The notes under the pieces: generated by a model | The model's database searches: none | What the model was told of the DNA's origin: nothing | What the model saw: the letters and a program-made list of their open reading frames with translations, nothing else | Shown: positions 19,525 to 47,227 of the stretch, in pieces | Position numbering within the stretch: the first letter of the stretch is position 1 | Layout of the letters: the number at the start of each line of letters is the position of its first letter | Assembly: GCF_030348945.1 (NCBI RefSeq) | Contig: NZ_JAUCEN010000002.1 | Coordinates: forward strand, 3,658,001-3,722,000 | Source of the DNA: Peribacillus sp. ACCC06369 | GTDB taxonomy: Bacteria > Bacillota > Bacilli > Bacillales > DSM-1321 | Direction: 5' to 3' | Length of the DNA stretch: 64,000 bases | Program-made: the position numbers and the translations under genes

Positions 19525-19555
19525 AAAAAAAGAAGACTGAATAACAGCCTTCCCT
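19525..19555 (-). terminator. Terminator after the SinI-like gene
   Basis: Minus strand GAAGGCTG, TTATT, CAGTCTTC, then seven T. Confidence 0.88.
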
Positions 19556-19591: not shown

Positions 19592-19696
19592 TCATTTTCC
19601 TTTTATGAAATCCCGCACTTCTTCAATAGATAATCCTAAATTTTCAGCCTCTAAAATTAGATAAACCCATTCTTCCCGTTCATTGTTAGCTTCCAT
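19592..19696 (-). CDS. SinI-like antirepressor (34 aa)
   Basis: A small protein consisting almost only of a SinI domain: MEANNEREEWVYLILEAENL then GLSIEEVRDFIKGK. The pattern EW..L..EA..LGLS.EEVR.F matches B. subtilis SinI and the C-terminal pairing domain of SinR. It should bind a SinR-type repressor as a heterodimer and remove it from DNA; a SinR homologue is encoded at 55779. GGGTGG stands 7 bases before the ATG, immediately after a c-di-GMP-I riboswitch. Too short for routine gene callers. A frameshifted relative lies at 23403. Confidence 0.85.
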   Translation of the reverse strand: MEANNEREEWVYLILEAENLGLSIEEVRDFIKGK

Positions 19697-19709
19697 GATA
19701 AATCCACCC

Positions 19710-19797
19710 AACTTGTGGTAACACAGCCGTCTTAGCATTTAGCCTTAGACCTGTAATTTTGCGTCCCTACTTTTCAATAGGTTTGCCCTTCTCAAGA
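19710..19797 (-). promoter_or_regulatory. c-di-GMP-I (GEMM-I) riboswitch controlling the SinI-like gene
   Basis: On the minus strand the conserved blocks appear in order: GGGCAAACC, a stem CCTATT/AGTAGG closed by a GAAA tetraloop, GGGACGCAAA, then GGTCTAAGGCTA (tetraloop-receptor side), AAGACGGC and GTTACC. These are the hallmark nucleotides of the c-di-GMP-I aptamer. The ribosome site of the SinI-like gene begins directly after it, which points to translational control. No terminator lies between aptamer and start. Confidence 0.92.
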
Positions 19798-19799: not shown

Positions 19800-20226
19800 A
19801 TTTCACATTAATTATTAACCAAGATTAATAAATCTCTTGAATCCATGATTCCTTGGTGCTAAATAAAGCATCATGCCCTCAAAGAATTTACCCTTAATTA
19901 AAACTATATTAATATTAATTATACTTAAAAACGTAATAATAGCACTTAATATTATTCGTTTTTTTCTGCCATTTTTCAACATCTTTCATCACAAAGTGAC
20001 ATCACAATGTAAAAACACTGGTATAATGCACTTTCTTTACAACTCTTTTATTAAAAATAGATTTATAATAACTATAATTTGCTCGAATTTACTATTCTAA
20101 AAAAATAATATTTTGAATTAAGTGGGCGAAGTGATTCAGTTTTAATTTATTTCCACTAAGAATAAAGCCAGCATTACAAACCATAATATGCCTGTAACCT
20201 GACTGTTCGTGAACTCTAGTAAATAT
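19800..20226. other. AT-rich intergenic stretch upstream of the riboswitch
   Basis: Holds possible promoter elements for the riboswitch transcript (minus strand TATAAT near 19915; TTGGTT with TATTCT about 16 bases on, near 19795-19822). A plus-strand frame at 19873-20100 is AT-driven and lacks a ribosome site, so I do not call it. Confidence 0.4.
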
Positions 20227-23402: not shown

Positions 23403-23535
23403 CTAATTCTTGTGGAGCTGATTAATCAAGTTCTGTTCGTTCTGAATAAAATCTCTCACTTCTTGAATGGAAAAACCTAAACTTTTTGCTTCCAAAATTA
23501 AATTAACCCATTCTGCATCAATTTTTTTTCTGCAT
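23403..23535 (-). pseudogene. Second SinI-like gene, frameshifted at an A8 run
   Basis: Encodes a SinI domain (DAEWVNLILEAKSLGFSIQE, VRDFIQNEQNLINQLHKN) close to that at 19592. By alignment its ATG is at 23535, but that frame stops after five codons. A run of eight A (23522-23529) puts the SinI domain one base out of frame; seven A would restore it. A GTG at 23549 opens the domain frame but has no proper ribosome site. Either decayed, or expressed by slippage on the A run. Confidence 0.7.
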
Positions 23536-23552: not shown

Positions 23553-23625
23553 ATTTGTGGTAACACAGCCGTCTGAGCATAGCCTTAGACCTGTAATTTT
23601 TTTCAATAGGTTTGCGTTTCTCAAG
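23553..23625 (-). promoter_or_regulatory. Remnant c-di-GMP-I riboswitch with internal deletion
   Basis: Same leader as at 19710 (GCAAACCTATTGAAA, then ATTACAGGTCTAAGGCTA, CAGACGGCTGTGTTACC), but about 11 bases are missing, including the 3' strand of the GAAA-capped stem and the GGGACGC block. Without these the aptamer should not fold or bind ligand. Confidence 0.85.
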
Positions 23626-23900
23626 AATATTTAACATTATGATTTTCCAATTTAGTTTCATGGCACAAAATCTGCGATTCTAACTTTTTATGAAGTCGAC
23701 ATACCCCACGACATTTTTTGCTAAGTATTTAATACTATATTCATGTTAATTATACTTAAAAATCTTTCGATTAATTAAAATACTTTTTGTTAATTTCCGT
23801 CATCATTCTACAATATTCTTCAAAAAAAAAACAACTAATTATTAGGAATTTTTGATTCATCACAAACAAGCTTAACCGCGCAATAATATTAAATAATTGA

Positions 23901-24026: not shown

Positions 24027-24645
24027 TAAAAATCATCCTTTCTTCTATAACTCATTAATTGAGCTTTTGCTTTTAATAGGTATATATATAAATAGTAGAA
24101 TTTATTATTTTACATTTTTTGTACTTTATTTTATATCCTGCGATAGAATTTACAGGTTACTTCATAACCCTTAACGAACAAGCCGTTCTTTATAAAGAAA
24201 AATTAAATTGAACTTACCATCTCTACATTATTATGTCAATTGGTTTCATTATTAAAACTATTTGCATATCTAGTAATTTGTTTCCCTCATTACAGGAATA
24301 ATAAACATCCCCTGTATGTCTAATCCTTAACTTGCTAGCTGATCCCCAAACTGCCATATCTAAAGTAAATTTAGGTTAGTAAGAATAGGTTTTATCCATT
24401 GGCCAAAGGCCTGAAATCTCTTATTCTAGGGCATGATGTGTTCCTACTTTCAACTATTCTCCTTTTTATTAATTGCCAGTAGCTTTTATTCGACCATTAA
24501 ACATTTCAAAAACGAGCTTGAAAATTAGGATATGATGGCTAACTTAATATTTTTTTGTCTATTTATGTTTGTTTTAAAGAACTAACTATACTTTATTGAG
24601 AACAAGTGCTATATTATAAAAAAAACGGTTTATATGGAGGAGGAT
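24027..24645. promoter_or_regulatory. Upstream region of polysaccharide locus A, with possible SinR boxes
   Basis: About 600 AT-rich bases without a supported gene. A GTTCTTT occurs at 24185-24191, and on the other strand AAAGAAC (24576-24582) and TGAGAAC (24597-24603), the last two 21 bases apart. GTTCTYT is the known SinR site of B. subtilis. The proximal pair lies about 45-70 bases before the acyltransferase start. Single 7-mers occur by chance in such DNA. Confidence 0.4.
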
Positions 24646-25821
24646 ATGACTAGATATGAGGAATTTGACTCATTAAGGGGTTTAGCCGCTCTCATTGTAT
24701 TAATCGGGCATTATTTGATGGTATATCCTTCATATGCTAATTATCAGTATGATTCAAACAGCTCCTACTTGATTTATTTGTTCAAGGAAACTCCTCTACG
24801 CCTTTTTTTCAGTAGTGGAAATGAGTCTGTCATTCTATTCTTTGTATTGAGTGGTTTTGTTTTGTATTTATCAGTTAATAGTGCTAAATTCCACTATTCT
24901 ACATACTTAATAAAACGAGTCTTTCGAATTTATATACCATATCTAGTAGCAATAAGCGCGGCTATATTGGCGAAAATACTTTTAAGCCATATTGATTTGC
25001 CCTTTATCACTGACTGGTTTAGTAAATCTTGGACAGGCCTGGATACTCCTTCCTTATTAATAGAACATCTTTTGTTTATTGGGCATTACAATACAGACGC
25101 CTATAACAATGTTATCTGGTCCCTTGTTCACGAGATGAGAATTTCGATTATATTTCCTTTACTGATTTTTTTATTTGTACGAAAAAAGCTTAAATACTCT
25201 TTATTATGGCTTTTTGTTTTAATTTTTTCATCGACTTTTTGTTTATATTTAGTTGGTTCCGGTGTGGATATAACCAGCATTCTTCTAAGTTTCCACTATA
25301 GTACTCTTTTTTTAATGGGAGCTATATTGGCGAAATATCGCCATGAACTTTTTGCGTATACCTTGAAAATGAAAAAACCTGTAAAAATTGCATTGTTGTT
25401 GGGGGCAATTATCTGTTTTATGTACGAAGGCATCATTGGCGAAGTGGATTTATTGAACAATTATATTTTCAGGGATTATGTGGTCTCGATCGGTGTTTGC
25501 ATATTTATTATCATGAGCGTATCTTCCCAAAAAATTTCAACGCTCTTAAGGTCAAGTTTGCTAACTCTTCTCGGTAAAATTTCATATAGTTTGTATTTGT
25601 ACCATCTTATATCGTTATTCTCATTCATGTACCTATTCTATAATAAGCTACCTACCGGTTTAATATTGATTTTTTCCTTTTTCTTTTCTTTGTTACTCTC
25701 TACAGTGTCCTATCAATTAGTGGAAAAACCATGCATGAGCCTTGGATCGTATTTCACGAGAAACAAACAAAAAACAGTAATAACCAAAGATCCGATAGCT
25801 CTAAAACGCAAAATAGGATAA
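24646..25821 (+). CDS. Acyltransferase 3 family membrane protein (polysaccharide O-acyltransferase)
   Basis: About 391 residues with some ten membrane helices. Family motifs: EFDSLRGLAALIVLIGHYL near the N-terminus (the His is the catalytic candidate), FFVLSGFVL, YLIKRVFRIYIPY and SLVHEMRISIIFPL. Such proteins O-acetylate or succinylate surface polysaccharides. GGAGGAGG precedes the ATG at 24646; an ATG 12 bases earlier overlaps it. First gene of locus A. A paralogue with the same motifs is at 56857. Confidence 0.93.
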   Translation: MTRYEEFDSLRGLAALIVLIGHYLMVYPSYANYQYDSNSSYLIYLFKETPLRLFFSSGNESVILFFVLSGFVLYLSVNSAKFHYSTYLIKRVFRIYIPYLVAISAAILAKILLSHIDLPFITDWFSKSWTGLDTPSLLIEHLLFIGHYNTDAYNNVIWSLVHEMRISIIFPLLIFLFVRKKLKYSLLWLFVLIFSSTFCLYLVGSGVDITSILLSFHYSTLFLMGAILAKYRHELFAYTLKMKKPVKIALLLGAIICFMYEGIIGEVDLLNNYIFRDYVVSIGVCIFIIMSVSSQKISTLLRSSLLTLLGKISYSLYLYHLISLFSFMYLFYNKLPTGLILIFSFFFSLLLSTVSYQLVEKPCMSLGSYFTRNKQKTVITKDPIALKRKIG

Positions 25822-25897
25822 TTGCTTACTATTCTATAAAAATTCTCAGCAAGTTTAGAACATATTCTTACTATCTCTAAAAAAAGTGGTGAAATCG

Positions 25898-26641
25898 ATG
25901 AATGAAAAGTTAAAAATAAAAGATTTTATACGAATCTTAAAGAAGCGAATATTTATCATTATTCTTTCTACACTTTGTATTACTGGTTTCATTATTTTTT
26001 CGTCCATGTACCTTATGAAACCAACTTATCAGTATTCCACTCAAGTTCTGGCAGGATCTTTAAGCATGGATGAAAAGGAAGCTTCCATAAACAAAGTTCA
26101 AGAAAACAGACAGCTTGCCCTTTCATATATGGACATCATTAAAAGTCCGCAGATCATGATAGGGGTTAAAGAGGAATTGAACCTTAAGGCTTCAAGCTAT
26201 GACTTACTTAAGCAAGTTTCCATTACAAATAGAGATAATTCCCAAATCATCACGATTACCGTCAAGGATTCGAATCCTGAATCTGCTAAGGACATTGCCC
26301 AGACAGTCGCGAGGCATTCGATATCTAATTTTAAAGACCTTACAAACGTTAAACAGATTAGTATTCTCAATGATAATAAAATGGGACAAGCAGAACTTCT
26401 TTTCCCAAAACCGAAATTCATCATAGCCATTTCAATCGTAATAGGCTTTTTCGCTGGAATAGGCTTAGCACTTCTTAGAGAACATTTTGATGATTCGACC
26501 TACTCCGATAGAGAGCTTGAACTTCTTGGAATTCCATTATTAGGAAGGCTGGATTTGAATACCAAAAGATTAAACAGAAAACGTAAAATAACTTATAAAA
26601 CCTTACCTTCCACAAAACGGGGTGAATATAGTGAGTATTAA
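25898..26641 (+). CDS. Wzz/CpsC-type chain-length regulator and kinase modulator
   Basis: 247 residues with two membrane helices (about 20-42 and 180-200) around an extracytoplasmic domain containing MDEKEASINKVQENRQLALS and ITVKDSNPESAKDIAQTVA. The motif PKPKFIIAISIVIGFFAGIG at the second helix is typical of CpsC/EpsA. It is longer at the C-terminus than the locus B homologue (a basic tail KRLNRKRKITYKTLPSTKRG). It overlaps the next gene by 11 bases, which encodes the matching, but degenerate, kinase-like protein. Confidence 0.9.
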   Translation: MNEKLKIKDFIRILKKRIFIIILSTLCITGFIIFSSMYLMKPTYQYSTQVLAGSLSMDEKEASINKVQENRQLALSYMDIIKSPQIMIGVKEELNLKASSYDLLKQVSITNRDNSQIITITVKDSNPESAKDIAQTVARHSISNFKDLTNVKQISILNDNKMGQAELLFPKPKFIIAISIVIGFFAGIGLALLREHFDDSTYSDRELELLGIPLLGRLDLNTKRLNRKRKITYKTLPSTKRGEYSEY

Positions 26642-27254
26642 ATTTTCAAGGAAACAATCCTTTTACCTAAATGAAATCAATAAAGAGCAATTTTATTCGA
26701 TATGTAACAATATCGAGTCCAACCTTCATAAAGACAATTTAATATTAATGATTACATCCATATCACATTCACAGAATATTGCCAATGCTACCGCGTACTT
26801 AGCACTTGCCTTTTCTGAGCAGCGTAAACGAGTGCTGGTTGTGGATGCTAATCTGCGTCAACCTTCGCTTCATCAGGTGTTTAATATCGATAATTCATTC
26901 GGTTTGACCAATTTGCTTTTAAATGAGAAGCCCAATTTTAACGAACATGCTATACATATAAAGGGTCATCTATTCTGTATACCTACAAGCGAAGTCATTT
27001 ATGAACCTGCAACATTATTAACATTAGAGACCCTTCCCACTCTGATTGAAGAGTGGAAAAAGAATTTTGACCTCATTTTATTTCATACATCGGACAGTTT
27101 AAATAAACCTGATGCAAATATCGTTGCTAAATATTGTGATGGCATAATTTTAGCGATACAAGAAGGAAGAGATAAGTTAGAGAAAATATCAGGTGTGAAA
27201 ATGCAATTTGAACGGGCAAATCTTGAAATTTCTGGATCAATGATCATTTCTTAA
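26631..27254 (+). CDS. BY-kinase (CpsD/EpsB) homologue with lost P-loop: probable pseudokinase
   Basis: 207 residues with the overall CpsD pattern, including VLVVDANLRQPSLHQVF (Walker A' region) and PATLLTLETLPTLIEEWKK. The Walker A, normally TSSEPNDGKSTTAAN, reads TSISHSQNIANATAY: the Gly, Lys and Ser/Thr that bind ATP are Asn, Ile and Ala. The Walker B Asp is His (LILFHTSD). There is no C-terminal tyrosine cluster. It should not phosphorylate; it may act as a structural partner of the Wzz protein. A GTG start follows ACGGGGTGA. Confidence 0.85.
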   Translation: MSIKFSRKQSFYLNEINKEQFYSICNNIESNLHKDNLILMITSISHSQNIANATAYLALAFSEQRKRVLVVDANLRQPSLHQVFNIDNSFGLTNLLLNEKPNFNEHAIHIKGHLFCIPTSEVIYEPATLLTLETLPTLIEEWKKNFDLILFHTSDSLNKPDANIVAKYCDGIILAIQEGRDKLEKISGVKMQFERANLEISGSMIIS

Positions 27255-27271
27255 ATCAGGGAGGGTAATAA

Positions 27272-27910
27272 GTGGATTCGAAAGCCAGAGTCGATAGACA
27301 GAAAGAAATCCTGATAAAACACCTATCGACATCATCATATTTTAATCTAAAGCGCACAATGGATTTTATCATCTCTTTTTTTATGCTGATACTTACAGCA
27401 CCTATTTTATTTTTATTTTGCATTCTTATCCCTATTGATTCAACTGGCTCCCCTTTTTATTATCAACAAAGACTGGGATTGGATGGAAAGCCTTTCAATA
27501 TGATTAAACTGCGTTCCATGGGCATCGATGCCGAAAAAAATGGACCGACGTGGGCAAGTGATAATGATTCTAGGGTTACAAGAATAGGAGCCTTTATACG
27601 AAAAACACGCATTGATGAAATCCCTCAGCTAATAAATGTTTTAAAGGGTGATATGTCACTCATCGGTCCAAGACCTGAAAGAGAATATTTCTATAAAGAA
27701 TTCGAAAAGTTTTTGCCTGGCTTTAAAAACCGTTTATATGTAAAACCAGGAATAACAGGATGGGCACAAGTAAATGGGGGGTATGATTTAACGCCAAAAG
27801 AAAAGCTGGATTTTGACCTCTATTATATTCAACACCGCTCATATGCTATGGAAATCAAGATTTTGTTCCGAACATTGACCATAGTCTTTACTGGTAATGG
27901 AGCTAGATAA
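27272..27910 (+). CDS. Priming sugar-phosphate transferase (bacterial sugar transferase family)
   Basis: 212 residues. One N-terminal membrane helix (TMDFIISFFMLILTAPILF) and a catalytic domain with KLRSMGIDAEK, RIGAFIRKTRIDEIPQLINV, GDMSLIGPRPERE and KPGITGWAQVNG. This is the WcaJ/EpsL-type core that moves a sugar-1-phosphate from UDP to undecaprenyl phosphate and so starts each repeat unit. The GTG start follows GGGAGGG. The donor sugar cannot be told from sequence alone; the neighbouring epimerase suggests a UDP-hexose or UDP-HexNAc. Confidence 0.94.
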   Translation: MDSKARVDRQKEILIKHLSTSSYFNLKRTMDFIISFFMLILTAPILFLFCILIPIDSTGSPFYYQQRLGLDGKPFNMIKLRSMGIDAEKNGPTWASDNDSRVTRIGAFIRKTRIDEIPQLINVLKGDMSLIGPRPEREYFYKEFEKFLPGFKNRLYVKPGITGWAQVNGGYDLTPKEKLDFDLYYIQHRSYAMEIKILFRTLTIVFTGNGAR

Positions 27911-27932
27911 TCTAAAAAAGGGGTAGTGAAAA

Positions 27933-28925
27933 ATGAATAAAGTACTAGTAACTGGGGGCTTTGGCTTTATTGGCTCTCATATTGTCGATATATTAATCCG
28001 TAATAATTATGAAGTGGCTATATATGATAACCTATCTACCGGATCTATCGGGAATGTCCATGCAAAAGTCACTCCCTTCTTTGGAAATGTTGAAGATGAG
28101 GTCTTACTTGAAAAAGCGATGGAGACATTTAGGCCTGACTATGTCATTCATCAAGCTGCACAAGTTAGCGTACAACAATCAATTTCGGATATTACGAATG
28201 ATGCACGGATCAATATCATGGGAACTATAAACATCGCTAAACTCTCTCACAAGTATGCCGTAAAAAAGATCGTGTTTGCCTCATCAGCGGCTGTATATGG
28301 AAATGCTGATGTTATGCCAATTACCCTATCACATCTTACTTCTCCATTATCACCATATGGTGCATCTAAAAAAACGGCAGAGGATTATCTAAAGCTTGCT
28401 AAAGAATTATACGACTTAAATTATGTGAACCTTCGATACAGTAATGTCTATGGACCAAGACAGACAGCAAGCGGTGAAGGCGGTGTTATATCTATCTTCA
28501 CTAATCTAGTCATTAATAATGAGCGGCCCGTTATTTATGGGGACGGCACGCAAACGAGAGATTTCATCTATGTAAAGGATGTAGCTGATGCCAATCTGAA
28601 AGCGTTGGAATCTGAAGGAAGCGGCACCTTCAATGTCTCATCAACCACTAGTACAAGCATCAAACAATTATTCTCGATTATTCAATCCTTTGGCAGCCAT
28701 GATTTAGCTCCTATTTATCAGCCAGCCAAAAATGGGGATATCAAAGAAAGCTTACTCTGTAATAAAACGACCATTCAAAAATTGGGTTGGCACCCCGTTC
28801 ATTCACTTGAAAGCGGTCTTGCTAGCACATATGAATATTATTTAAATCAAAATCAGCCTTCTTTAACCACCAAGACACTTCATTCACCTGCACCAATACT
28901 CAAGCCAACGACTTTATCGTCATAA
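27933..28925 (+). CDS. NAD-dependent UDP-sugar epimerase (GalE/Gne type)
   Basis: 330 residues, extended SDR fold. NAD-binding GGFGFIGSHI (7-16), catalytic YGASK (Tyr and Lys of YxxxK near 150), a Ser/Thr in FASSAAVYGN, and RYSNVYGPRQ. It is expected to supply an epimerised UDP-hexose for the locus A repeat unit. A C-terminal extension rich in Thr and Pro after about 305 (SLTTKTLHSPAPILKPTTLS) is not part of the enzyme core. Confidence 0.9.
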   Translation: MNKVLVTGGFGFIGSHIVDILIRNNYEVAIYDNLSTGSIGNVHAKVTPFFGNVEDEVLLEKAMETFRPDYVIHQAAQVSVQQSISDITNDARINIMGTINIAKLSHKYAVKKIVFASSAAVYGNADVMPITLSHLTSPLSPYGASKKTAEDYLKLAKELYDLNYVNLRYSNVYGPRQTASGEGGVISIFTNLVINNERPVIYGDGTQTRDFIYVKDVADANLKALESEGSGTFNVSSTTSTSIKQLFSIIQSFGSHDLAPIYQPAKNGDIKESLLCNKTTIQKLGWHPVHSLESGLASTYEYYLNQNQPSLTTKTLHSPAPILKPTTLSS

Positions 28926-28942
28926 TATCGGGAGCAAAAAAA

Positions 28943-30409
28943 GTGAATACAAAGAAGAACTCTATTATAAAAAACATTGTCCATTTATTTTACAGCACAA
29001 TTCTTTCCAATGTTCTAAATGCGGCCACCCTCATTTTATTAGCTAATTATTTTAACTCAAAAAACTATGGGATTTTTAGTATAGCACTAGCTCTTGCCAT
29101 GGTCATGAACTTTTTTACGGACCTTGGGACAAGTAATACTTTTCTAAGGGAAGGAACGAAGAAGGAAAACTTAGGGAGAACGTTTTCTTCTTATATAAAG
29201 ATTCGGCTTGTTTGCTCCCTTTTAACCTTTTTTGTTTTCTTTGCCGGTATACGTATTCTTTATCAAGAACAACAAATTCTTTATATGATATATAGCCTAA
29301 TGATCCCGATGGTCATTGGCCTGGCGATGCAAAGTATTGGGATCACCTATTTTCAATTAATTGAAAGGATGCAATTCATTGCATCGATAAAAATCTGCTC
29401 TTCTTTTGCTTTAATACTTTCAACCACAGTGAGTATGGGCTTAAAAGTGGATGTGCATCTAGCAGCCTTTTTATATGGATTTTCTTATTTAGCAGGTGGA
29501 TTTTACAGCCTTTATTTACTGCTGAAAAAAGCGAAAATAAAATGGAAATCTCCTTTTGAAAAAAAATTATTAACTAATCTTAGTCCGTTTTTAATAAGTG
29601 GGTTATTTATTATGCTAACCCCTCAATTGGGCCCATTAGTGCTAGAAAAAACACTGCCTTTAGCGCTGGTCGGTCTCTTTGCAGTAGCCTATCGGATTCC
29701 TTCTGCTTTATACCAAATACCTGGGGTAATTGCAGGCGCTTTTTTTCCGCTTTTATTTAAGCGATACAACCAAGGTGAGCTTGCAGAACACACAAGATTG
29801 AATATCCTGCAAATGAAAATCATGTCCTATATCGGTATGTGCATGACTATAACCTTATTCTACTTGGCTACTTATCTCGTCACCATTTTATTCGGAGCCG
29901 AGTGGGGATCTGCGGTTCAGCCTTTAAAAATATTGGCCTTTATAATCGTTCTGCAAGGCTTTAACATTGCCATTGCTGACGGTCTCACGACAAGGGGATT
30001 ACAGAACCGGCGTACAATTGTCCAGTTTATAACCATCACCGTTGGTTTGGTTTCCTTTTATTTTTTGAGCGTCAACTATGCAGTAGCTGGTTCAGCTTTT
30101 GCCGTGCTAACCATGGAAATCGTCTCATTCATTGGCTATGTCGCTGCCAACCCAGAAAAAAGAATGGTTTTCTTCAAGGTGATCCTTCCGTATGGTACCT
30201 TCTTTTCTATTAGTTTCATCCTGATGCACAACTTATTATCCAAGTATCCTTTTATAGCGATGATTTCTAGCATCATTTTTGTCACTGCTCTAATTATGCT
30301 GCTCGATAAGAGCATTAAGCAACTAATCGTTGGCTTCATAAAAAAGAAAAATGAAACCAAACATTTACAAGATGGGAGACAAAAAGAGAATGGAAAGATT
30401 GCTAATTAA
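28943..30409 (+). CDS. Wzx-type polysaccharide flippase
   Basis: 488 residues, about 12-14 membrane helices, MATE/PST superfamily. It carries lipid-linked repeat units across the membrane. The start is a GTG after GGGAGC; the N-terminal helix LFYSTILSNVLNAATLILLA and the pattern NFFTDLGTSNTFLREGTKKE fit oligosaccharide flippases. It precedes the polymerase gene, whose start lies inside its 3' end. A second, unrelated-looking flippase serves locus B. Confidence 0.88.
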   Translation: MNTKKNSIIKNIVHLFYSTILSNVLNAATLILLANYFNSKNYGIFSIALALAMVMNFFTDLGTSNTFLREGTKKENLGRTFSSYIKIRLVCSLLTFFVFFAGIRILYQEQQILYMIYSLMIPMVIGLAMQSIGITYFQLIERMQFIASIKICSSFALILSTTVSMGLKVDVHLAAFLYGFSYLAGGFYSLYLLLKKAKIKWKSPFEKKLLTNLSPFLISGLFIMLTPQLGPLVLEKTLPLALVGLFAVAYRIPSALYQIPGVIAGAFFPLLFKRYNQGELAEHTRLNILQMKIMSYIGMCMTITLFYLATYLVTILFGAEWGSAVQPLKILAFIIVLQGFNIAIADGLTTRGLQNRRTIVQFITITVGLVSFYFLSVNYAVAGSAFAVLTMEIVSFIGYVAANPEKRMVFFKVILPYGTFFSISFILMHNLLSKYPFIAMISSIIFVTALIMLLDKSIKQLIVGFIKKKNETKHLQDGRQKENGKIAN

Positions 30410-31646
30410 TAAAAACACCTCTATGTGGTCAGTCTTTCTCTTGTTATTTTTTATTACACTCAGTAAATATAATATCTCCATCGGTTTTTCTTTAAAAATT
30501 TACATGATTTTTCTAGCCATTTTCTTCTGCATTCATTTTCGGGATTTTTATTTCCAAACCCTTTATCATTATGAAATCCTATTGCTTTTATTTTATTTTA
30601 CCTATTGTCTGAGCGGCGCTTTTTCTCAATATCCTGAATCAAGCATTCGGGTCATCCTAGGAGTGATACTCGTACTTGGCTGTTATTTCATCATGAGATA
30701 TGTACTGGAGCTAACAACATTAAGTGCCATTGAGAATTCGATTGCAAATGTCGGGATCATCTTTAACGTCATTAGCCTTTTATTGTACATCATCGGCATA
30801 AAGGTGACAGGAAGATTTCCGACTGGTGTCGAGATTACTTCATATGGATTATTATTGGACCGGGATTATCCAAGATTAATCGGTTTGCTGGATGATCCAA
30901 ACATCTTCATTTTTTTTAACACAATCTTTTTTTCCTTTTATTTAACCAATTTAAAGGGATTCAAGAATTCGATTGGATTCCTCCTATGTATGATTACTTC
31001 CCTTCTTACTTTTTCAAGAGGTGGAATTTTAGCGCTTGTACTGGTGGTCTTTTTGTACATGCTGTTAGCTAATTTCTCAAAAAAAATCAAAATGTTAGCC
31101 GTTTCCTTATTATTTCTAACGGTAATATTTGTTGCTGGATCTCTTATCAAAATAGATTTCAATGAAATCATCACGAGCCGCATTACTGACTTTTCAACTG
31201 ATGGGGGCAGCGGCAGGTTTGAATTATGGGGGCAGGCGATCAACTACTTTATGTCCAATCCCCTTTTTGGCATTGGCGCTTTTAATTTTTCCGATTATTA
31301 CGCTTTCGAGCATAATGAAAAGCTATATGTTCACAATACGTATCTCGAGGTTTTAGTAGAGTCTGGAATCATTGGTTTTCTTTTTTACCTTTCCTTTTTA
31401 TTGATGCTTTTCATCACCTTATTTAAGTCTAAATTACATAAAGAAAAACCTTTCATTGTACTTACCCTTTTTGCTTTCTTGATACAGATGATGTCCCTTT
31501 CACTCATGATTAATGAGGCATTTTTTTCCTTTTTAGCACTAGCTTTAAAATATATTTCCGTATATGAAAGAAAAGAGGTGGAATGTAATGAACTACAGCA
31601 AAAAGGACGACAGACCCCTGGTTTCGGTGATAACTCCCTCGTATAA
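30390..31646 (+). CDS. O-antigen polymerase-like protein (Wzy)
   Basis: About 418 residues with roughly 11 helices, and the Wzy_C/O-antigen ligase motif region FELWGQAINYFMSNPLFGIG with HNTYLEVLVESGIIG. It should join flipped repeat units on the outer face. I placed the start at the ATG 30390 (GGGAGA upstream), which overlaps the flippase by 20 bases; an ATG at 30351 is possible. Confidence 0.88.
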   Translation: MERLLINKNTSMWSVFLLLFFITLSKYNISIGFSLKIYMIFLAIFFCIHFRDFYFQTLYHYEILLLLFYFTYCLSGAFSQYPESSIRVILGVILVLGCYFIMRYVLELTTLSAIENSIANVGIIFNVISLLLYIIGIKVTGRFPTGVEITSYGLLLDRDYPRLIGLLDDPNIFIFFNTIFFSFYLTNLKGFKNSIGFLLCMITSLLTFSRGGILALVLVVFLYMLLANFSKKIKMLAVSLLFLTVIFVAGSLIKIDFNEIITSRITDFSTDGGSGRFELWGQAINYFMSNPLFGIGAFNFSDYYAFEHNEKLYVHNTYLEVLVESGIIGFLFYLSFLLMLFITLFKSKLHKEKPFIVLTLFAFLIQMMSLSLMINEAFFSFLALALKYISVYERKEVECNELQQKGRQTPGFGDNSLV

Positions 31647-32391
31647 CAGCTCGTCTTTTATTATAGAAACCATAAAAACTGTCCAAGATCAAACCTACTT
31701 TAACTGGGAGATGATCATTGTTGACGATCAATCAAAGGATGACTCGGTTCATGTCATTAAATCTTATGCAGATAAGGATTCAAGGATCAGACTTATCCCC
31801 TTATCTAAGAATGTCGGGGCTGCCCGTGCTAGGAATATAGCCATTAAAGAAGCACATGGAGATTATATTGCATTTCTTGATAGTGATGATCTATGGCTCC
31901 CAACTAAACTGGAAGAACAAGTCACATTTATGCAAAAGGGAAATCTTGCTTTCTCTTTCACCTCCTATTCTTTAATAGATGAAGAAGGAAAGTCTCTTGA
32001 TGTTGAAGTAAAGGCACCTAAAGCGGTGGATTATAAGTATCTGATTGGAAATACAACAATTGGCTGTTTAACCGTGATGCTGGATAAGCTGCAAATCAAG
32101 CATATTGAAATGCCCGATATTCAGCCAGAGGATACTGCTTTATGGCTGTTACTGTTACGACAAGGATATAAAGCGCATGGCTTACCGAAAGTCTTATCCA
32201 AATATCGTATTGTTAGTAACTCTACTTCCAGGAATAAATTTAAAGCTGCTTACCGATATTGGAAGCTGTTACGAAACCAGGAAAAGTTAAACTTTATTAA
32301 AGCAAACTTTTATTTTAGCAAATACGCCTATAACGCTTACAACAAAAACAGAGGTTCACAGCCTGCCTCTTTACTAAATGGAGGGAAATAA
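31588..32391 (+). CDS. Glycosyltransferase family 2
   Basis: 267 residues. GT-A fold: VSVITPSYNSSSFIIETIKT at the N-terminus, IIVDDQSKDDS, the metal-binding DSDDLW and a C-terminal EDTALWL. It is inverting and adds one sugar from a nucleotide donor to the growing lipid-linked unit. AAGAGGTGG is 6 bases before the ATG at 31588. The 5' end overlaps the polymerase gene by 59 bases. Confidence 0.92.
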   Translation: MNYSKKDDRPLVSVITPSYNSSSFIIETIKTVQDQTYFNWEMIIVDDQSKDDSVHVIKSYADKDSRIRLIPLSKNVGAARARNIAIKEAHGDYIAFLDSDDLWLPTKLEEQVTFMQKGNLAFSFTSYSLIDEEGKSLDVEVKAPKAVDYKYLIGNTTIGCLTVMLDKLQIKHIEMPDIQPEDTALWLLLLRQGYKAHGLPKVLSKYRIVSNSTSRNKFKAAYRYWKLLRNQEKLNFIKANFYFSKYAYNAYNKNRGSQPASLLNGGK

Positions 32392-32396
32392 GAAAT

Positions 32397-33443
32397 ATGA
32401 ACAATGTCCTGCTACTTACAGATAAACTCATAATAGGCGGAGCTGAGATGTATTTTTGCAAATTGGAAAACCATCTTCAGGATGAAAACATGATGTTTTA
32501 CTCTGCTGCTGCGACGGGTGAATTGTACAAGCAAATCCATAACAAACAACAATTCATTCCTTTAAGCTTAAAGAATCACCTCGCCAATCTTAAAATACTA
32601 ACTAAACAAGTTAGCTTAAAACGCATTGATGTCATTCATGCCAATAGTTTACGAATGCTGCTATATTCGATAGCCATTAAGAAACTAACCAGAAGAAATA
32701 TCAAACTGGTGTACACCAAGCATAATGTAACGATTCTAGAAAAAAAGGTGCCCTTTCTATTTAAAAGGGTGCTGAACAAGCATGTTGAGCAAATCATTGC
32801 GGTCAGTAATTTTGAAAGAGATAACTTACTTCAATTGGGTGTTAGGAAGAGGCTTATTCGGACGATTTACAACGGCGTGGATGTGGAGCACTTTTCTTTT
32901 AAACAAATACAGCCTAAAGAAACATTCAATGTGGGAATTTTAGCCCGCTTATCAAAAGAAAAAAATCATGAACTATTCTTGAAAATTGTTAATGAGTTAA
33001 AGGATGTACCTAATGTGATGTTTTATATTGCCGGTGATGGACCGGAGCGAGAATTTGTAGAAAAAATGATTAAAGACTTAAAGTTACACCACAAAGTGAT
33101 GCTCCTAGGCAATGCCTCCAATCCGTATGAATTTATATGCAATATGGACTTACTTCTATTAACATCACTTAGAGAAGTCTTTCCAATGGTCGTCCTGGAA
33201 GCAATGGCAGCTGGTACGCCAATTATGTCAGTGGATGTAGGCGGCATTAAAGAAGCCGTTGTGGACCATGAAACTGGGATTCTCATTTCACATCATTCAG
33301 AACAAGAATTTGCCAATCAAATTAAATCCCTTCAAGATAATGAGGATTTAAGACAACGCTTGGGAAGCAAAGCAAGACAAAAAGTAGAAGAATCCTTCTC
33401 CCTCTCGAATATGATTCATTCTACACTGAAAACCTATCAATGA
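32397..33443 (+). CDS. Glycosyltransferase family 4
   Basis: 348 residues, GT-B fold. N-terminal GGAEMYFCKLE; C-terminal donor site GILARLSKEKNHELFLK, GDGPEREFVEKM, LLGNASNPYEFICNMDLLLL, and E in REVFPMVVLEAMAAGTPI. Probably retaining. The ATG follows GGAGGGAAATAAGAA. Last gene of the polycistronic part of locus A; a hairpin terminator lies just after it. Confidence 0.92.
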   Translation: MNNVLLLTDKLIIGGAEMYFCKLENHLQDENMMFYSAAATGELYKQIHNKQQFIPLSLKNHLANLKILTKQVSLKRIDVIHANSLRMLLYSIAIKKLTRRNIKLVYTKHNVTILEKKVPFLFKRVLNKHVEQIIAVSNFERDNLLQLGVRKRLIRTIYNGVDVEHFSFKQIQPKETFNVGILARLSKEKNHELFLKIVNELKDVPNVMFYIAGDGPEREFVEKMIKDLKLHHKVMLLGNASNPYEFICNMDLLLLTSLREVFPMVVLEAMAAGTPIMSVDVGGIKEAVVDHETGILISHHSEQEFANQIKSLQDNEDLRQRLGSKARQKVEESFSLSNMIHSTLKTYQ

Positions 33444-33444
33444 A

Positions 33445-33484
33445 CAAAAAACAAACGATGGCCTCGTTTGTTTTTGTTTTTTAT
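33445..33484 (+). terminator. Terminator after the GT4 gene of locus A
   Basis: AACAAACGA, TGGCC, TCGTTTGTT, then TTTGTTTTTT. It separates the beta-helix gene, which therefore needs its own promoter. Confidence 0.9.
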
Positions 33485-33496
33485 GCCTATACATAC

Positions 33497-33540
33497 TTTT
33501 TGGACAAGCATATGCTATATAACGTCACCATAAAAGGAGT
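33497..33540 (+). promoter_or_regulatory. Possible sporulation (sigma-K-like) promoter before the beta-helix gene
   Basis: ATACATACTTTTTGGACAAG is followed by CATATGCTA. The sigma-K consensus is an AC-type -35, about 16 bases, then CATANNNTA. The match is by eye and the sequence is AT-rich. Confidence 0.3.
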
Positions 33541-33547
33541 GATATAT

Positions 33548-35089
33548 ATGGCAGACCCAATTAACCTCCCTGAGGATTGCCAGAATAGGGATGTTGCTAA
33601 TATTGATTGTTTTGGCGCTAATCCGAATCTAGTGGATAATTCACCAGCCATTCAAGCAGCGATTGATTATTGTGTAGATAATAACTACTCTAAAGTCATC
33701 ATTACAGGGAAGAAACAATATACCCTATCCTCCCCCATTGTCATTAAGCAAAATGTCCATCTTGAAATTGATCCGACGGTAACATTAATAGTTAAAGGTA
33801 ATTTCCAGGTTTTTGAGCTACAAAAGGATGCTTCCCTCTCCGGTGGGACGATTGAAGTAGTCGATAATAGCTTCAATTCATCCGTCATTTTTCTTTCCGG
33901 GGCACAGCAAATAGAAATTCATAATCATACAGCTATATCCAATATCAATATTATTAACCGTACAACCACGTATCAAGGTATTGCCATCCATTTATACTGT
34001 AACAAAGCATGGGATTTCATCAGTTTCTTTCAGGCAAGCTCCCTCCAAATCACAAACTTCCATACAGCACTCTATTTAAAAACCGAAAAACTTTTAAATG
34101 TAGATACCCCGTGTTGGATTAACGCGAACTCCTTCGAGTCCATTTTTATAGATGGCTGCCAGTACGGTATCGAGATTGTGGGAAACAGTGATCTGCCTTA
34201 CGAAATTTCCGGCAACACCTTTACTGGCATTCAAGTTCAAAGTCGAAAACAAACGAAGAAAGTCATTCGATGCTCAGGTGCATATAACATATTTGAAGGA
34301 ATCATATGGGATACCTACCGTATGGATGCTCCCCCGCTCGTCATTGAATTCTCCTCCACCTCCCATCACAACTACCTAAGTTCGAATCAGGTATCGACAT
34401 CCATCCTTGATCGCGGCCAATACAATCGATGCACATCTCCTCATGAAGAATCGCTCCAAGTATATCCACCTCTTGCCTTAGGAAAAGCCCATCTGGTCGG
34501 GAATCAAGACGATATCTTAGTAAATGCAAACGTCCGCTACGCTGTACGTCAGCTTTCCGGAAAAGCTCCTTATGGAGGAAATATCAATAACTGTTTCAAT
34601 TTACTCGATGAGCAAAGTGTAAATTACCTCGATGTTCCCAGTTCCCAACCGGTTGTGATTGAATTGGATTTTACAAAACAGCCTATTAAAATGCTAAATT
34701 GCTTTGGTATTTATTTTGGATGGAATGAAAGTCCCAGTCGCGTATTGATTGAATATCAACAAAGCTTAAATGGACCTTGGACAGTTGCGAAAAATCTTCC
34801 ATTTAATGCCGGTAACACTGTTATCTCAGAAGCAAGAGCAGAAACGCTGTATAAAATTAAACTGACGTTAAGCGGGTATACACAAGAGCACAAACGATTC
34901 CGGATTAATCGGATCTTCGCAAGATCATCGTTACAGCAAGGTGCTGCTTGGTTGCCAACTACAGGCGGAACAGTATATGGAGATTTAGAACTTCAAAAAG
35001 GGAAAGCAGTGACAATGGCTTCATCAAACGGAACAAAGTGGAAAGTGAGTATTAATGATCAAGGACAAATTATCACTTCAAAGCTATGA
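33548..35089 (+). CDS. Parallel beta-helix (pectate-lyase-like) protein without signal peptide
   Basis: 513 residues. Starts MADPINLPEDCQNRDVANID, then a pectin-lyase-type repeat region (SPAIQAAIDYCVDNNYSKVI and GGTIEVVDNSFNSSVIFLSG) to about residue 300. The C-terminal part contains a carbohydrate-binding-like sandwich (IELDFTKQPIKMLNCFGIYF). AAAAGGAGTG fixes the ATG at 33548; upstream codons are promoter and terminator DNA. No secretion signal is visible. It is related to the convergent gene at 35281, which has a membrane anchor. Probably acts on, or binds, a polysaccharide. Confidence 0.8.
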   Translation: MADPINLPEDCQNRDVANIDCFGANPNLVDNSPAIQAAIDYCVDNNYSKVIITGKKQYTLSSPIVIKQNVHLEIDPTVTLIVKGNFQVFELQKDASLSGGTIEVVDNSFNSSVIFLSGAQQIEIHNHTAISNINIINRTTTYQGIAIHLYCNKAWDFISFFQASSLQITNFHTALYLKTEKLLNVDTPCWINANSFESIFIDGCQYGIEIVGNSDLPYEISGNTFTGIQVQSRKQTKKVIRCSGAYNIFEGIIWDTYRMDAPPLVIEFSSTSHHNYLSSNQVSTSILDRGQYNRCTSPHEESLQVYPPLALGKAHLVGNQDDILVNANVRYAVRQLSGKAPYGGNINNCFNLLDEQSVNYLDVPSSQPVVIELDFTKQPIKMLNCFGIYFGWNESPSRVLIEYQQSLNGPWTVAKNLPFNAGNTVISEARAETLYKIKLTLSGYTQEHKRFRINRIFARSSLQQGAAWLPTTGGTVYGDLELQKGKAVTMASSNGTKWKVSINDQGQIITSKL

Positions 35090-36569: not shown

Positions 36570-37601
36570 TTACTTTTTATTATAATATTCCACATACCAA
36601 TTTACGAACTTTTGCAAACCCTCTTCTATCGAAGTTTCCGGCTTAAATCCGACAGCCTTCTGCAGCATATCAGTAGAAGCATAAGTGGCAGGTACATCTC
36701 CAGGTTTGATTGGTTCAAAAACCTTATCAAATTCTATCTCTTTACCTAGAGCATTACTTAAACATTTCTCCAAAGCTCCAATGAAAGCCATCAACTTTTC
36801 AGGATTGTTATTTCCAATGTTAAATACTTTGTGAGGAACGTTATTATCTCCTACTGAAGGGTTGGATAAAAGACGTTCTATTCCCTCGACAATATCGTCA
36901 ATGAAGGTGAAGTCTCTATATAAGTCATTTTCAAAATCACCATTATTAAAGATCTTAATTGGTTCACCAGCAAAATACTTATCAGTAAATCCAAAGTAGG
37001 CCATATCCGGTCGTCCCATAGGGCCATAAACCGTAAAGAAACGGAGTCCTGTAGCAGGAATATTATATAGATGACTGTATGTATGGGCCATCAATTCATT
37101 TGATTTCTTAGTTGATGCATAAAGCGATACAGGGTTGTCTACAAAATCTGTTTCTTCAAATGGAACCTTTTTGTTAGCTCCATAAACAGAACTAGATGAT
37201 GCGTATACAAGATGGTCCACAGGATTGTGCCTGCAAGCTTCAAGTATGTTGTAAAAACCAATGATATTACTTTGAATGTACACATCCGGATTTTCTATCG
37301 AGTATCGCACACCAGCTTGGGCAGCCAGATTTACTACAATATTAGGCTTATATTCTTCAAAAATATTGTTGATGATCGCTTTGTCAGAGATATCACCTGT
37401 GATAAAGGTAAATTTCTCATAAGGTTTAAGTTGCTCCAAACGAGCATATTTAAGCTTCACATCATAGTAATCATTTATATTATCAACACCGATCACATTA
37501 CAGCCTTGTTCTAATAGTTTCCTTGATAAGAAAAATCCGATGAAACCTGCCGCTCCAGTGATTAGGTATGTTTTACTAGAATCTAGGGATTTGTAATTCA
37601 A
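36570..37601 (-). CDS. UDP-glucuronate/UDP-sugar 4-epimerase (CapI/GalE-like)
   Basis: 343 residues, extended SDR: TGAAGFIGFFLSRKLLEQG (16-34), YASSSSVYGANKKVPF, catalytic YASTKKSNE, RFFTVYGPMGRPDMA. The GRPDMA motif is shared with CapI/LspL UDP-GlcA 4-epimerases. It would turn UDP-GlcA from the Ugd gene just upstream into UDP-GalA. Its start overlaps the ugd end by 26 bases. Last gene of locus B. Confidence 0.9.
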   Translation of the reverse strand: MNYKSLDSSKTYLITGAAGFIGFFLSRKLLEQGCNVIGVDNINDYYDVKLKYARLEQLKPYEKFTFITGDISDKAIINNIFEEYKPNIVVNLAAQAGVRYSIENPDVYIQSNIIGFYNILEACRHNPVDHLVYASSSSVYGANKKVPFEETDFVDNPVSLYASTKKSNELMAHTYSHLYNIPATGLRFFTVYGPMGRPDMAYFGFTDKYFAGEPIKIFNNGDFENDLYRDFTFIDDIVEGIERLLSNPSVGDNNVPHKVFNIGNNNPEKLMAFIGALEKCLSNALGKEIEFDKVFEPIKPGDVPATYASTDMLQKAVGFKPETSIEEGLQKFVNWYVEYYNKK

Positions 37602-38952
37602 CGTGTTTCGACTCCTTTATGACTTCTCTACTTGCAGGTTTTCTTCCAATAGAGTGATACTCTACACCTGATTTTTGCATCTCTTCAACACTATAGATAT
37701 TTCTTCCGTCATATACTAAAGGAGTCCTCATCAACTTCTTATATGTTTCAGGCGTTAATGCTTTCACTTCTCCCCATTCAGTAAAAATAAAACAGACATT
37801 TGCACTTTCTAGGGCATGCTCTATATTCGCAACATACGTGATACTGCCTTTGCCATTCTTACCTTCTGGATACACTCTAGCAAAATTCTCTGCCCCAACA
37901 GGATCAAAAGCATAGATATCGGCACCTTGCTCTAATAATAAAGGCACGTTCTCAAGAGATGCAGCTTCTCTTAAATCGTCAGTACCGGGCTTAAAAGTCA
38001 ACCCTAACACTGCTACTTTCAGCCCATTAAAAGTAATGAGTCTTTTACTAGCCTTTTTATATAACATCGTCTTTTGGTCCTTGTTCACATCAATGGCGGC
38101 TTTGACGGTTTTAAGCTCGTAACCGTTTTGTCTTGCCAGATACTCCAATGCTTTAGTATCCTTTGGAAAACATGAACCGCCATAACCAATACCCGCATTT
38201 AAAAACTTGCTTCCGATACGATTATCGAAGCTCATTCCTCTTGCGACATCCTGAACATCCGCACCTACCAATTCACATAGATTTGCAATATCATTCATAT
38301 AAGAGATTTTAAGGGCAAGAAAATCATTTGATGCATACTTGATCATTTCTGCAGATCTTCTATTGACTGAGACAACAGGTAAATGAAATGGCTCATAGAT
38401 ATCCTGCATCAGTTCTTCAGCCCATTTACTCTCTGTTCCGATAATGATCCGTTCTGCATGCAGTGTATCATGTACGGCAGATCCTTGTGCCAAGAATTCT
38501 GGGTTCGATACAACTTCCACTTTTACATCATTAACTAAAAAGTCTTGTATAAACTGCTCGACTTTATCATTCGTGCCAACTGGGACTGTAGATTTCACGA
38601 CTACTAGACAATCCTTTTCCACCGATTCAGCAATTTGCCTAGCAACTGTTGCAATGTATGAAAGATTTGCAGAACCATCTGGCTGCTCTGGAGTACCGAC
38701 ACCGATAAAAATTGCATCGGCATCCTTATAGGCGGATTTATAATCTGTTGTATAATCAATTCTTCCTGAAGCATAATTCTTCTGCATCAATTCTTCCAAA
38801 TCAGCTTCATAGATAGGAGAAATTCCAGACTTCATTACGTTTACTTTATTTTCATCTATATCAACACAGGTTACTTGATGACCCACTTCGGCAAAACATA
38901 CACCTGCTACTAAGCCGACATAGCCTGTTCCTGCTACTGCTATTTTGTACAT
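37576..38952 (-). CDS. ugd: UDP-glucose 6-dehydrogenase
   Basis: About 458 residues. Oxidises UDP-glucose to UDP-glucuronate with two NAD. N-terminal MYKIAVAGTGYVGLVAGVCF, catalytic Cys in GYGGSCFPKDTKAL (about 260), and the C-terminal NAD/UDP domain with VLGLTFKPGTDDLREA. Typical TuaD/Ugd length except for a short basic tail (SREVIKESKHVELQIPRF). AAAGGTAGG precedes the ATG 38952; a longer reading to 39036 has no ribosome site. GalU (49980) supplies its substrate. Confidence 0.95.
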   Translation of the reverse strand: MYKIAVAGTGYVGLVAGVCFAEVGHQVTCVDIDENKVNVMKSGISPIYEADLEELMQKNYASGRIDYTTDYKSAYKDADAIFIGVGTPEQPDGSANLSYIATVARQIAESVEKDCLVVVKSTVPVGTNDKVEQFIQDFLVNDVKVEVVSNPEFLAQGSAVHDTLHAERIIIGTESKWAEELMQDIYEPFHLPVVSVNRRSAEMIKYASNDFLALKISYMNDIANLCELVGADVQDVARGMSFDNRIGSKFLNAGIGYGGSCFPKDTKALEYLARQNGYELKTVKAAIDVNKDQKTMLYKKASKRLITFNGLKVAVLGLTFKPGTDDLREAASLENVPLLLEQGADIYAFDPVGAENFARVYPEGKNGKGSITYVANIEHALESANVCFIFTEWGEVKALTPETYKKLMRTPLVYDGRNIYSVEEMQKSGVEYHSIGRKPASREVIKESKHVELQIPRF

Positions 38953-39198
38953 TGTTATGCCTACCTTTGCTCTTTTATTAAAAATTGAATCGGTTAAGTA
39001 CCTGTTCAACTTCTGAATATATTTTAAAATTCCCAAGAATAGTTTTTATTAATCGCAATCTATATCTTCCTGAACCATAGCATCAAACATATTAATAGTC
39101 GATTTCATTGCCTTTATTATTTCCATAACAAGGCCTTCAAGATTTATAAGTGAGACAAAACCAATCAACGCCACGTATAATCTTTATATTAAATACTT

Positions 39199-40683: not shown

Positions 40684-40730
40684 TTCATCACCTGCTATAA
40701 ATACGAATCTTTACAATTATATTAATCTAT

Positions 40731-41906: not shown

Positions 41907-42306
41907 TTTCTTTCTCCTCGTATATTAGTAATTTTAAATTAAAAAGAATATCCAATTGTTCTATCTCCTATCTCTCTAAAAATTCCCCAATTAAATGATT
42001 AGAAATATTAAAGAAAGGAGGAGGCACATCGTTTGAGTTTTTCCAAACATCCTGGGTCAATATCAAGAAAAGTCAGAAATTCATGTTAAAGTGGTATAAT
42101 TCACGAACAATCGGTATTCTGAACACTCTCTTTAATAATCAATTTAAAGCGGTTGGATTATTACTACCAAAATTAATTTTATTGGCCGGGACATTGATTC
42201 AATTATTCAAATATTAAAAGACAGAATCAAAAACCTACTTAAATTAGAATAAATTATAGTTCGTAAATACATACTTTAAGTATTTTTACTACTTATTAAT
42301 ACTGTT
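41907..42306. other. 400-base gap in locus B containing an opposite-strand reading frame remnant
   Basis: No minus-strand gene here. On the plus strand 41999-42217 stays open for 72 codons (SWVNIKKSQKFMLKWYNSRT, then NNQFKAVGLLLPKLILLAGT) but has no start codon early on. It reads like the C-terminus of a protein whose 5' part is gone. I do not recognise it. Confidence 0.45.
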
Positions 42307-43644: not shown

Positions 43645-43647
43645 CTG

Positions 43648-45988: not shown

Positions 45989-46017
45989 TTTTTGCTTCCC
46001 ATCCCTACTAATAGTTA

Positions 46018-47211: not shown

Positions 47212-47227
47212 GATACTTCACTTTCCT

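Follow-up and report, generated by a model that had tools for sequence, protein, structure and literature searches.

A c-di-GMP-I riboswitch in front of sinI in Peribacillus, and a second SinI/SinR pair around an EPS island

Introduction

To our knowledge, the route by which c-di-GMP enters the SinI/SinR matrix decision is unclear in Bacillus subtilis. According to the accessible portions of the papers cited here, sinI of this species is transcribed under Spo0A control, and the binding of SinI abolishes the DNA binding of SinR (PMC3163267). A putative c-di-GMP riboswitch before sinI (BMMGA3_08510), entered as "(c-di-GMP)-sinI", was named in Bacillus methanolicus MGA3 in an RNA-seq paper from 2015, where the related function is given as biofilm formation control (PMC4342826). 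The Bacillus cereus group has c-di-GMP riboswitches, 'on' for cbpA and 'off' for mcpA, their class being unstated in the available text; the same text reports that overexpression of a cyclase raises sinI in Bacillus thuringiensis, and it names no riboswitch for sinI (PMC7793685). In Clostridioides difficile the loss of SinRR' raises dccA and c-di-GMP (PMC5864091).

Here we describe a riboswitch-sinI locus of Peribacillus that lies in a window of 64 kb, meaning the whole stretch of DNA that was analysed, and compare it with the rest of its genome, with the genus and with SinR loci of other genera. In Peribacillus and related soil bacteria, predicted RNA sensors of c-di-GMP precede genes for SinI, a small protein that relieves the repression of biofilm slime genes, and this arrangement suggests a direct connection from the signal to the biofilm switch.

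Results

The riboswitch and sinI-2

The initial annotation of the window had placed an intact c-di-GMP-I aptamer within 19592..19797, and RF01051 matches there over its full model with 72.9 bits, so that both the place and the kind were correct. The elements found at this site are:

19918..19923, minus strand: TATAAT within the block TTTTTAAGTATAATTAA, candidate -10 element (alignment of 18 sinI-2 upstream regions)
19714..19797, minus strand: aptamer of the sinI-2 riboswitch, c-di-GMP-I class (RF01051; 72.9 bits and E 2.2e-12 by cmscan)
19715..19718, minus strand: CCAC, which forms the 3' strand of helix P1 in the aptamer and is predicted to pair alternatively with the Shine-Dalgarno GUGG (sequence, leader MFE fold and accessibility calculation)
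19703..19709, minus strand: Shine-Dalgarno-like GGGTGGA of sinI-2 (sequence)
19592..19696, minus strand: sinI-2, a 34-aa SinI-domain protein (PF08671 38.8 bits; pN/pS 0.35)
19529..19555, minus strand: intrinsic-terminator-like hairpin 3' of sinI-2 (pattern scan: 11 pairs, then a T tract)

The covariance-model check with RF01051, which the annotation had proposed, gave a match well over the gathering score of 35 (19797-19714, model positions 1-87 of 87). It is the sole gathering-level match reported in the Rfam scan of the 64-kb window, one overlapping lower match of the same clan being omitted from the reported set. Matches to a group II intron and to STnc410 in a permissive Rfam scan were below gathering and were discarded as chance. 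GGGC, GCAAA and ACC are all present in the cmscan alignment of the window aptamer, and we take them to represent the ligand-contact residues G20, A47 and C92 (Vc2 numbering).

The 3' end of the aptamer is 17 nt from the ATG of sinI-2, with GGGTGG in between, and the G-rich Shine-Dalgarno (SD)-like site is kept at the same position in the aligned sinI-2 orthologues shown. The gene had likewise been called correctly: its product, MEANNEREEWVYLILEAENLGLSIEEVRDFIKGK (34 aa; the frame lies inside a 48-aa ORF), matches the Pfam SinI domain PF08671 with 38.8 bits, the curated cut-off being 31.4. The Pfam scan found no HTH domain in it, the only other match, MerR-DNA-bind, staying below the cut-off with 13.5 bits, and the NCBIfam SinI equivalog NF046031 (cut-off 80 bits) was reached neither by SinI-2 (21.7) nor by SinI-1 (23.6), which is described below. 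SinI-2 is under purifying selection, with a pN/pS of 0.35 over 30 codons in 17 sequences.

The terminator pattern scan found one hairpin as compared to 0.2 in shuffles, and judged from the sequence the aptamer, sinI-2 and the terminator-like hairpin would read as a one-gene unit. The block TTTTTAAGTATAATTAA is retained in most of the 18 aligned sinI-2 upstream regions, and the TATAAT inside it is a possible -10 element of sinI-2. The aptamers of the 18 sinI-2 copies that lie near sinR-2 (see below) score 62-74 bits, again as compared to a gathering score of 35. Two sinI-2 orthologues, L126 (genome G016) and L129 (G019), have no ATG, the codon reading ATA or ATC, and their reading frame stays open from the aptamer onward; this may be either an alternative start or early decay.

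sinI-2 is flanked by 18921-19058 and 20804-20944 (minus strand), which encode similar 45-46-aa proteins with one hydrophobic stretch each; the protein of 18921-19058 gave no match in the Pfam scan. Also beside sinI-2, the stretch 20227-20740 (minus strand) holds what by eye appear to be ABC-type ATPase fragments in differing frames, and is probably a pseudogene.

sinI-1 and the spread of riboswitch-sinI

The genome (5.62 Mb) has three RF01051 matches, two of them 5' of sinI genes. The second of these genes, sinI-1, lies elsewhere in the genome; it is preceded by a riboswitch, encodes a SinI of 46 aa and is convergent with the gene of the 110-aa SinR-1. Both SinI-1 and SinI-2 match the Pfam SinI domain, and SinR-1 is nearer B. 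subtilis SinR than SinR-2 is, with 133.7 as compared to 96.3 bits to PDB 1b0n_A. The annotation had read the window gene as a sinI moved away from sinR relative to B. subtilis, which proved mistaken: a sinI-1 beside sinR-1 exists and also bears a riboswitch, and sinI-2 is a paralogue of sinI. Two things went beyond that annotation, the position of riboswitch-sinI-1 directly beside SinR-1 and a decayed copy at about 23640-23403.

The third RF01051 match (L001 1591-1224, minus strand) lies 5' of the gene for a 64-aa protein, which has CxC and CxxC motifs and only weak zinc-ribbon matches. A further SinI-domain ORF of 46 aa (L009 1477-1617, plus strand; 32.1 bits) has a 259-aa ORF on one side and, on the other, an ORF that by eye is LysM-like, and none of the RF01051 matches of the genome lies there. 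At L184 2785-2210 (minus strand) the element TTTTGGTAGATTACCRACATA occurs twice 5' of sinI-1, flanking a 53-aa zinc-ribbon-like gene that has five SinR-box matches 5' of it.

RF01051 was found in 36 of 36 genomes of the genus, with 156 matches in total; 150 of these were listed, as were 150 of 170 SinI matches plus one added. Among the matches listed, a SinI domain lies within 400 nt 3' of 52 of the 150 c-di-GMP-I matches, in 32 of the 36 genomes, and 31 of these 52 stand beside a SinR-like gene and 21 without one. Counted by genome, again among the matches listed, a riboswitch-sinI adjoins a SinR-like gene in 31 of 36, and 21 genomes carry a copy that lacks this neighbour. In five of the 36 (G002, G003, G012, G015, G026) there was no riboswitch in about 1 kb round sinR-1.

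By record title, the relatives with a 95-97% identical SinR-1 are Peribacillus, including P. frigoritolerans, P. simplex, P. butanolivorans and P. muralis, or unclassified Bacillus. RF01051 or its sister family RF03167 was present at 74 of the best 80 titled SinR loci (19+19+17+19), and because these are the best 80 of 237 from one scan, the sample leans to Peribacillus-like SinRs. A SinI frame, recognised by its motif, follows the aptamer in 74 of the 74 riboswitch-bearing loci, and 75 of 75 frames (the 74 loci and our own sinI-1) match Pfam SinI at E≤0.001. The SinI tryptophan is 54-76 nt from the aptamer end in all loci but L070, where the frame is 275 nt away. The titles of the riboswitch-sinI loci are Peribacillus, Robertmurraya, Cytobacillus, Rossellomorea, Mesobacillus and Neobacillus; Pseudomonas and Paenibacillus, which also occur among the SinR loci, look mislabelled. 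The other six of the best 80 gave no riboswitch match even at E≤1, and in four of them (L054, L095, L098, L103) a convergent SinI-like frame is still present. The species are related, so the counts of loci and genomes are counts of non-independent events.

The sinI-2/sinR-2 EPS island

The remaining part of the window holds two EPS clusters and sinR-2:

24634..35089, plus strand: EPS cluster 1 (acyltransferase, Wzz, epimerase, flippase, glycosyltransferases), the variable part of the island (Pfam, some ORFs unscanned)
36570..55308, minus strand: EPS cluster 2, an eps-type operon from Wzz/kinase/CpsB onwards (Pfam)
55779..56102, plus strand: sinR-2, a SinR homologue divergent from the eps operon (HTH_3 and SinI domains; PDB 1b0n_A)

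That a SinR homologue at 55779 is divergent from an eps operon had been stated in the annotation and holds true. Scanned as the ORF 55770-56102, SinR-2 has an HTH_3 domain (50.6 bits, cut-off 23) and a SinI domain (31.6 bits, cut-off 31.4), and it matches PDB 1b0n_A over residues 1-96 with 96.3 bits (E 8.3e-27); its best NCBIfam match, SlrR, is below the cut-off with 52.7 of 250 bits. The operon opens with genes for Wzz, a kinase-type ATPase and CpsB/CapC.

SinR-2 was matched at 80-100% identity in 19 of the 36 genus genomes, its own included. Some of these matches extend past a stop near the C-terminus, and in the islands read the SinR-2 proteins end variably after about residue 98. In a tree of 45 proteins (midpoint root) SinR-2 forms a group of nine rows (support 94/83) separate from SinR-1, and a single long-branch row stands next to this group. 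G024 does not contribute its SinR-2 to the tree, since its sequence stretch ends inside the gene. In 18 of the 18 genomes with both genes listed, sinI-2 and sinR-2 are on one contig, 23.9-39.5 kb apart and in constant relative orientation, and the pair brackets the EPS island. In the 19th sinR-2 genome, G008, a SinI frame lies about 30 kb off and the aptamer core is by eye altered; this aptamer may still score, because one of the three RF01051 matches of G008 is unlisted.

The contents of the island vary between genomes. The Wzz, kinase and CpsB next to sinR-2 show 76-98% identity in nine of nine islands, cluster 1 has close matches in five of the nine and none in G001, G019, G020 and G034, and the polymerase gene of the window had no match at E 1e-10 in any of the nine. 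A second SinI/SinR pair is built round an EPS island in part of Peribacillus. Adjoining the island is a purF-like gene (21354-22724, plus strand; glutamine amidotransferase and phosphoribosyltransferase), of which a 96% identical copy lies inside the same island in two of nine genomes.

Spo0A-like and SinR boxes, and the partner of SinI-2

We searched the 250 nt upstream of the riboswitches, allowing one mismatch, for TTTGTCRAA, which we take to be the Spo0A box consensus. Such boxes stand 5' of 55 of 75 sinI-1 riboswitches, 66 boxes as compared to a shuffle mean of 8.4 and maximum of 14, and most of those in Peribacillus are one common inherited form with a mismatch. Within 250 nt of the sinI-2 riboswitches there were none in 18 (shuffles 1.8); the sinI-1 rate, 3.52 per kb, would predict about 16 in the 4.5 kb of sinI-2. 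The annotation had put RNA control in the place of Spo0A, and this agrees with sinI-2 but not with sinI-1, which may well keep a Spo0A input.

GTTCTYT is presumably the SinR box consensus, and its operators would be expected at the eps promoter. In the 900 nt 5' of the sinI-1 riboswitches it occurs 2.07 times per kb as compared to 0.44 in the other flank (140 versus 24.5 shuffled), with at least three boxes in 23 of 75 loci, and this enrichment suggests a feedback of SinR on its own antirepressor. As perfect inverted repeats (GTTCTTT-AAAGAAC, gap 0-10) the genome has only two, and the control pattern gave one; of the two, one lies by sinI-1 and the other within the first part of an ABC-transporter ORF. 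The eps/sinR-2 intergenic region had no GTTCTYT in 10 of 10 genomes, and in the window the boxes are at chance, 19 found as compared to 21 expected. With no box at eps/sinR-2 and none enriched in the window, an account of the window eps operon by SinR operators is unsupported, and it is here that the proposed circuit is weakest. The annotation's wiring of c-di-GMP to SinI/SinR is well supported on the riboswitch-SinI side, by conservation (52 of 150 listed in the genus, 74 of 74 at the SinR loci), and not on the side from SinR to eps, where the expected operator was not found.

These boxes also bear on the question of which SinR is the target. SinI-2 could act mainly on SinR-1, or on both SinRs, with sinR-2 a separate regulator of the island: the SinI domain is present in SinI-1 as well as in SinI-2, and the SinR boxes cluster 5' of sinI-1 and are absent at eps/sinR-2. 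Such a target would not lead one to expect that sinI-2 keeps within 40 kb of sinR-2, in one orientation, in 18 of 18 genomes despite the gene replacement between them, and we consider it rather unlikely. We lean instead towards SinR-2 as the main partner of SinI-2.

Expression platform and direction of the switch

The typical sinI-1 leader has the sequence GCCUGRAAUAC-loop-GUAUUYYRGGRGG, a 10-bp hairpin whose 5' arm includes the P1 3' strand and whose 3' arm ends in the SD. One strand is common to two mutually exclusive helices. The sinI-2 class has the CCAC/GUGG pairing in place of this hairpin sequence, and in the window leader CCAC and GUGG are paired in the unconstrained MFE fold. In the anti-SD helix of sinI-1 leaders 97.0% of 632 cells pair, as compared to 28.5-54.9% with slid partners. 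The helix is kept but nearly invariant, and since there were no compensatory double changes, covariation was rejected as a proof and speaks neither for nor against it. Its support comes from conservation, strand sharing and shuffled linkers. Shuffling of the linkers lifts the free-state median probability of an open SD from 0.0029 to 0.067 (64 leaders); set against its own ten shuffles, the native linker hides the SD more than their median does in 56 of 64 leaders and more than every single one of them in 29 of 64.

To calculate accessibility, the ligand state was mimicked by barring the P1 strand from pairing downstream, in 74 sinI-1 leaders (73 titled and our own) and 15 of the 18 sinI-2 leaders. 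L070, with a short aptamer call and its SinI 275 nt off, was left out of the leader statistics, and L126, L129, L135 and L139, for which the start-codon filter found no start, were left out of the accessibility table. In sinI-1 the median probability that the whole SD is open goes from 0.0023 free to 0.326 with P1 locked, with a rise of more than twofold in 65 of 74 leaders and a drop by more than half in two. The effect is weaker in sinI-2, where the median goes from 0.0031 to 0.061; 11 of 15 rise more than twofold, four rise twofold or less and none drops by half. In the window leader the probability rises from 0.0031 to 0.0243, which is small in absolute terms. The SD of sinI-2 is also weaker, with a median strength of 5.1 as compared to 8.6 kcal/mol in sinI-1.

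It is very probable that the riboswitch acts on sinI-2 translation. Because the SD-hiding hairpin shares a strand with helix P1, c-di-GMP is predicted to turn SinI on, and from the modelled leaders this direction seems likely; it is a prediction and not a result, as the unconstrained MFE of our own sinI-1 leader misses the aptamer fold. The switch could also work the other way, c-di-GMP lowering SinI so that the matrix stays repressed, as with the OFF riboswitch before mcpA in the B. cereus group in the accessible text (PMC7793685). The P1-locked MFE fold of the window leader, in which some of the SD remains paired, and the two sinI-1 leaders that fall on locking would fit this direction. It is unlikely all the same, since P1 needs the very strand by which the SD is hidden, so that the ligand should free the SD, and since most leaders of both classes open more than twofold.

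A decayed second copy

The window also holds the remains of another riboswitch-sinI:

23555..23640, minus strand: decayed second c-di-GMP-I aptamer (alignment with the intact copy and an orthologue)
23403..23522, minus strand: SinI-domain frame of the decayed copy (PF08671 37.7 bits; alignment)

The decayed aptamer has lost the P2 3' strand and the GGGACGC segment, the Rfam scan gave nothing at this position at E≤1, and the ATG at which its orthologue starts does not share the reading frame of the SinI domain. Genome G004 (L121) has an intact relative of this copy (23403-23640). Nearby, the 41-aa ORF 23901-24026 (minus strand), beginning MPLYQMREIWTPLKL, is by eye like a small protein of genome G011 (L185) that comes directly after a c-di-GMP-I riboswitch; the Rfam scan of the window found no riboswitch 5' of the window ORF.

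A decayed neighbour raises the question whether sinI-2 is itself a decaying duplicate with no present role, and its riboswitch a relic. The two orthologues that lack the ATG, the changed aptamer core of G008, the window ORF of only 34 aa and SDs weaker than those of sinI-1 would all agree with this. Yet the pN/pS of 0.35 in 17 sequences, aptamers of 62-74 bits and the retained synteny with sinR-2 argue against it, and we find it quite improbable.

The ligand and its network

A single GGDEF protein is encoded in the genome, carrying the GGDEF motif as well as a GAF domain. There is also a single EAL protein, which has a YkuI_C domain and presumably may lack phosphodiesterase activity. Genome-wide searches for PilZ, HD_5 and c-di-GMP-II gave no matches. 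With a single GGDEF protein, loss of one enzyme should remove the c-di-GMP signal. Genus genomes with sinR-2 have 1-5 GGDEF matches and 3-4 riboswitches, and the numbers of riboswitches and GGDEF matches rise together (Spearman 0.68, 36 genus genomes, kinship uncorrected). Some GEMM-I variants sense other cyclic dinucleotides such as cGAMP. The ligand-discriminating position is G in the window aptamer and in 41 of 41 aligned sinI-1 leaders, which are those left of 64 after removal of aptamers >96 nt and of near-identical leaders; we take this position to separate c-di-GMP from other cyclic dinucleotide specificity. With this G and an encoded GGDEF cyclase it is very unlikely that the aptamer senses cGAMP or another such molecule, as those variants do, and it would be expected to bind c-di-GMP.

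Discussion

We propose that sinI-2 is read from its own mRNA, with the c-di-GMP-I riboswitch as leader. In the free state the P1 3' strand CCAC would pair with the ribosome site GUGG; when c-di-GMP is bound, P1 would be stabilised and the ribosome site freed, and SinI-2 would be made at high c-di-GMP. SinI-2 would then bind the SinI-like domain of SinR proteins, most likely that of SinR-2 at the far end of the island, which we infer to act on eps, and the repression of matrix genes by the bound SinR would be relieved. The riboswitch of sinI-1 would act alike on SinR-1, with the Spo0A input at the promoter in addition, giving Spo0A AND c-di-GMP, and sinI-2 would have the RNA input alone.

We regard this explanation as a whole, in which ligand-freed SinI-2 relieves SinR repression and sinI-1 does the same plus Spo0A, as evenly balanced between right and wrong. 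Only tentatively do we suggest the more general reading, that c-di-GMP in this genome is in effect a matrix signal read by RNA, with an AND gate at sinI-1 and a c-di-GMP-only gate at sinI-2, which together with SinR-2 occupies the island ends. If true, the sugar genes of the EPS island are exchanged while the SinI-2/SinR-2 control pair stays. The locus is also an example of an antirepressor gene and a repressor gene that keep their places at the two ends of a polysaccharide island whose genes are replaced again and again. The predicted direct link between c-di-GMP and SinI at the RNA level is common to several Bacillaceae genera.

The bare link between a c-di-GMP riboswitch and sinI is already in print once. 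In the literature searched, which leaves out subscription papers and preprints, only one paper names such a riboswitch before sinI in its accessible text (PMC4342826). That literature made no mention of conservation across the family, of a platform working by strand exchange, of an orphan copy accompanied by SinR-2 or of the contrast between two gates. B. methanolicus is like the window in having a c-di-GMP riboswitch before sinI; the report consists of one species and one sinI, in a table entry and a sentence, and its available part mentions no paralogue, platform or function test (PMC4342826).

The sin locus of C. difficile also ties Sin regulators to c-di-GMP, in the reverse direction, and the word riboswitch occurs 0 times in the main text of that paper (PMC5864091). 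According to the available text, the riboswitches of the B. cereus group drive adhesion or motility genes (PMC7793685). Their targets there are output genes, whereas the target in Peribacillus is the antirepressor of the matrix repressor. B. subtilis shares with Peribacillus the small SinI antirepressor and a SinR with an HTH and a SinI-like domain, as seen in the matches to 1b0n_A, and RF01051 had no matches in a control set of 14 genomes that included B. subtilis. Unlike in B. subtilis, the sinI of Peribacillus carries a riboswitch, and a second pair brackets the EPS island.
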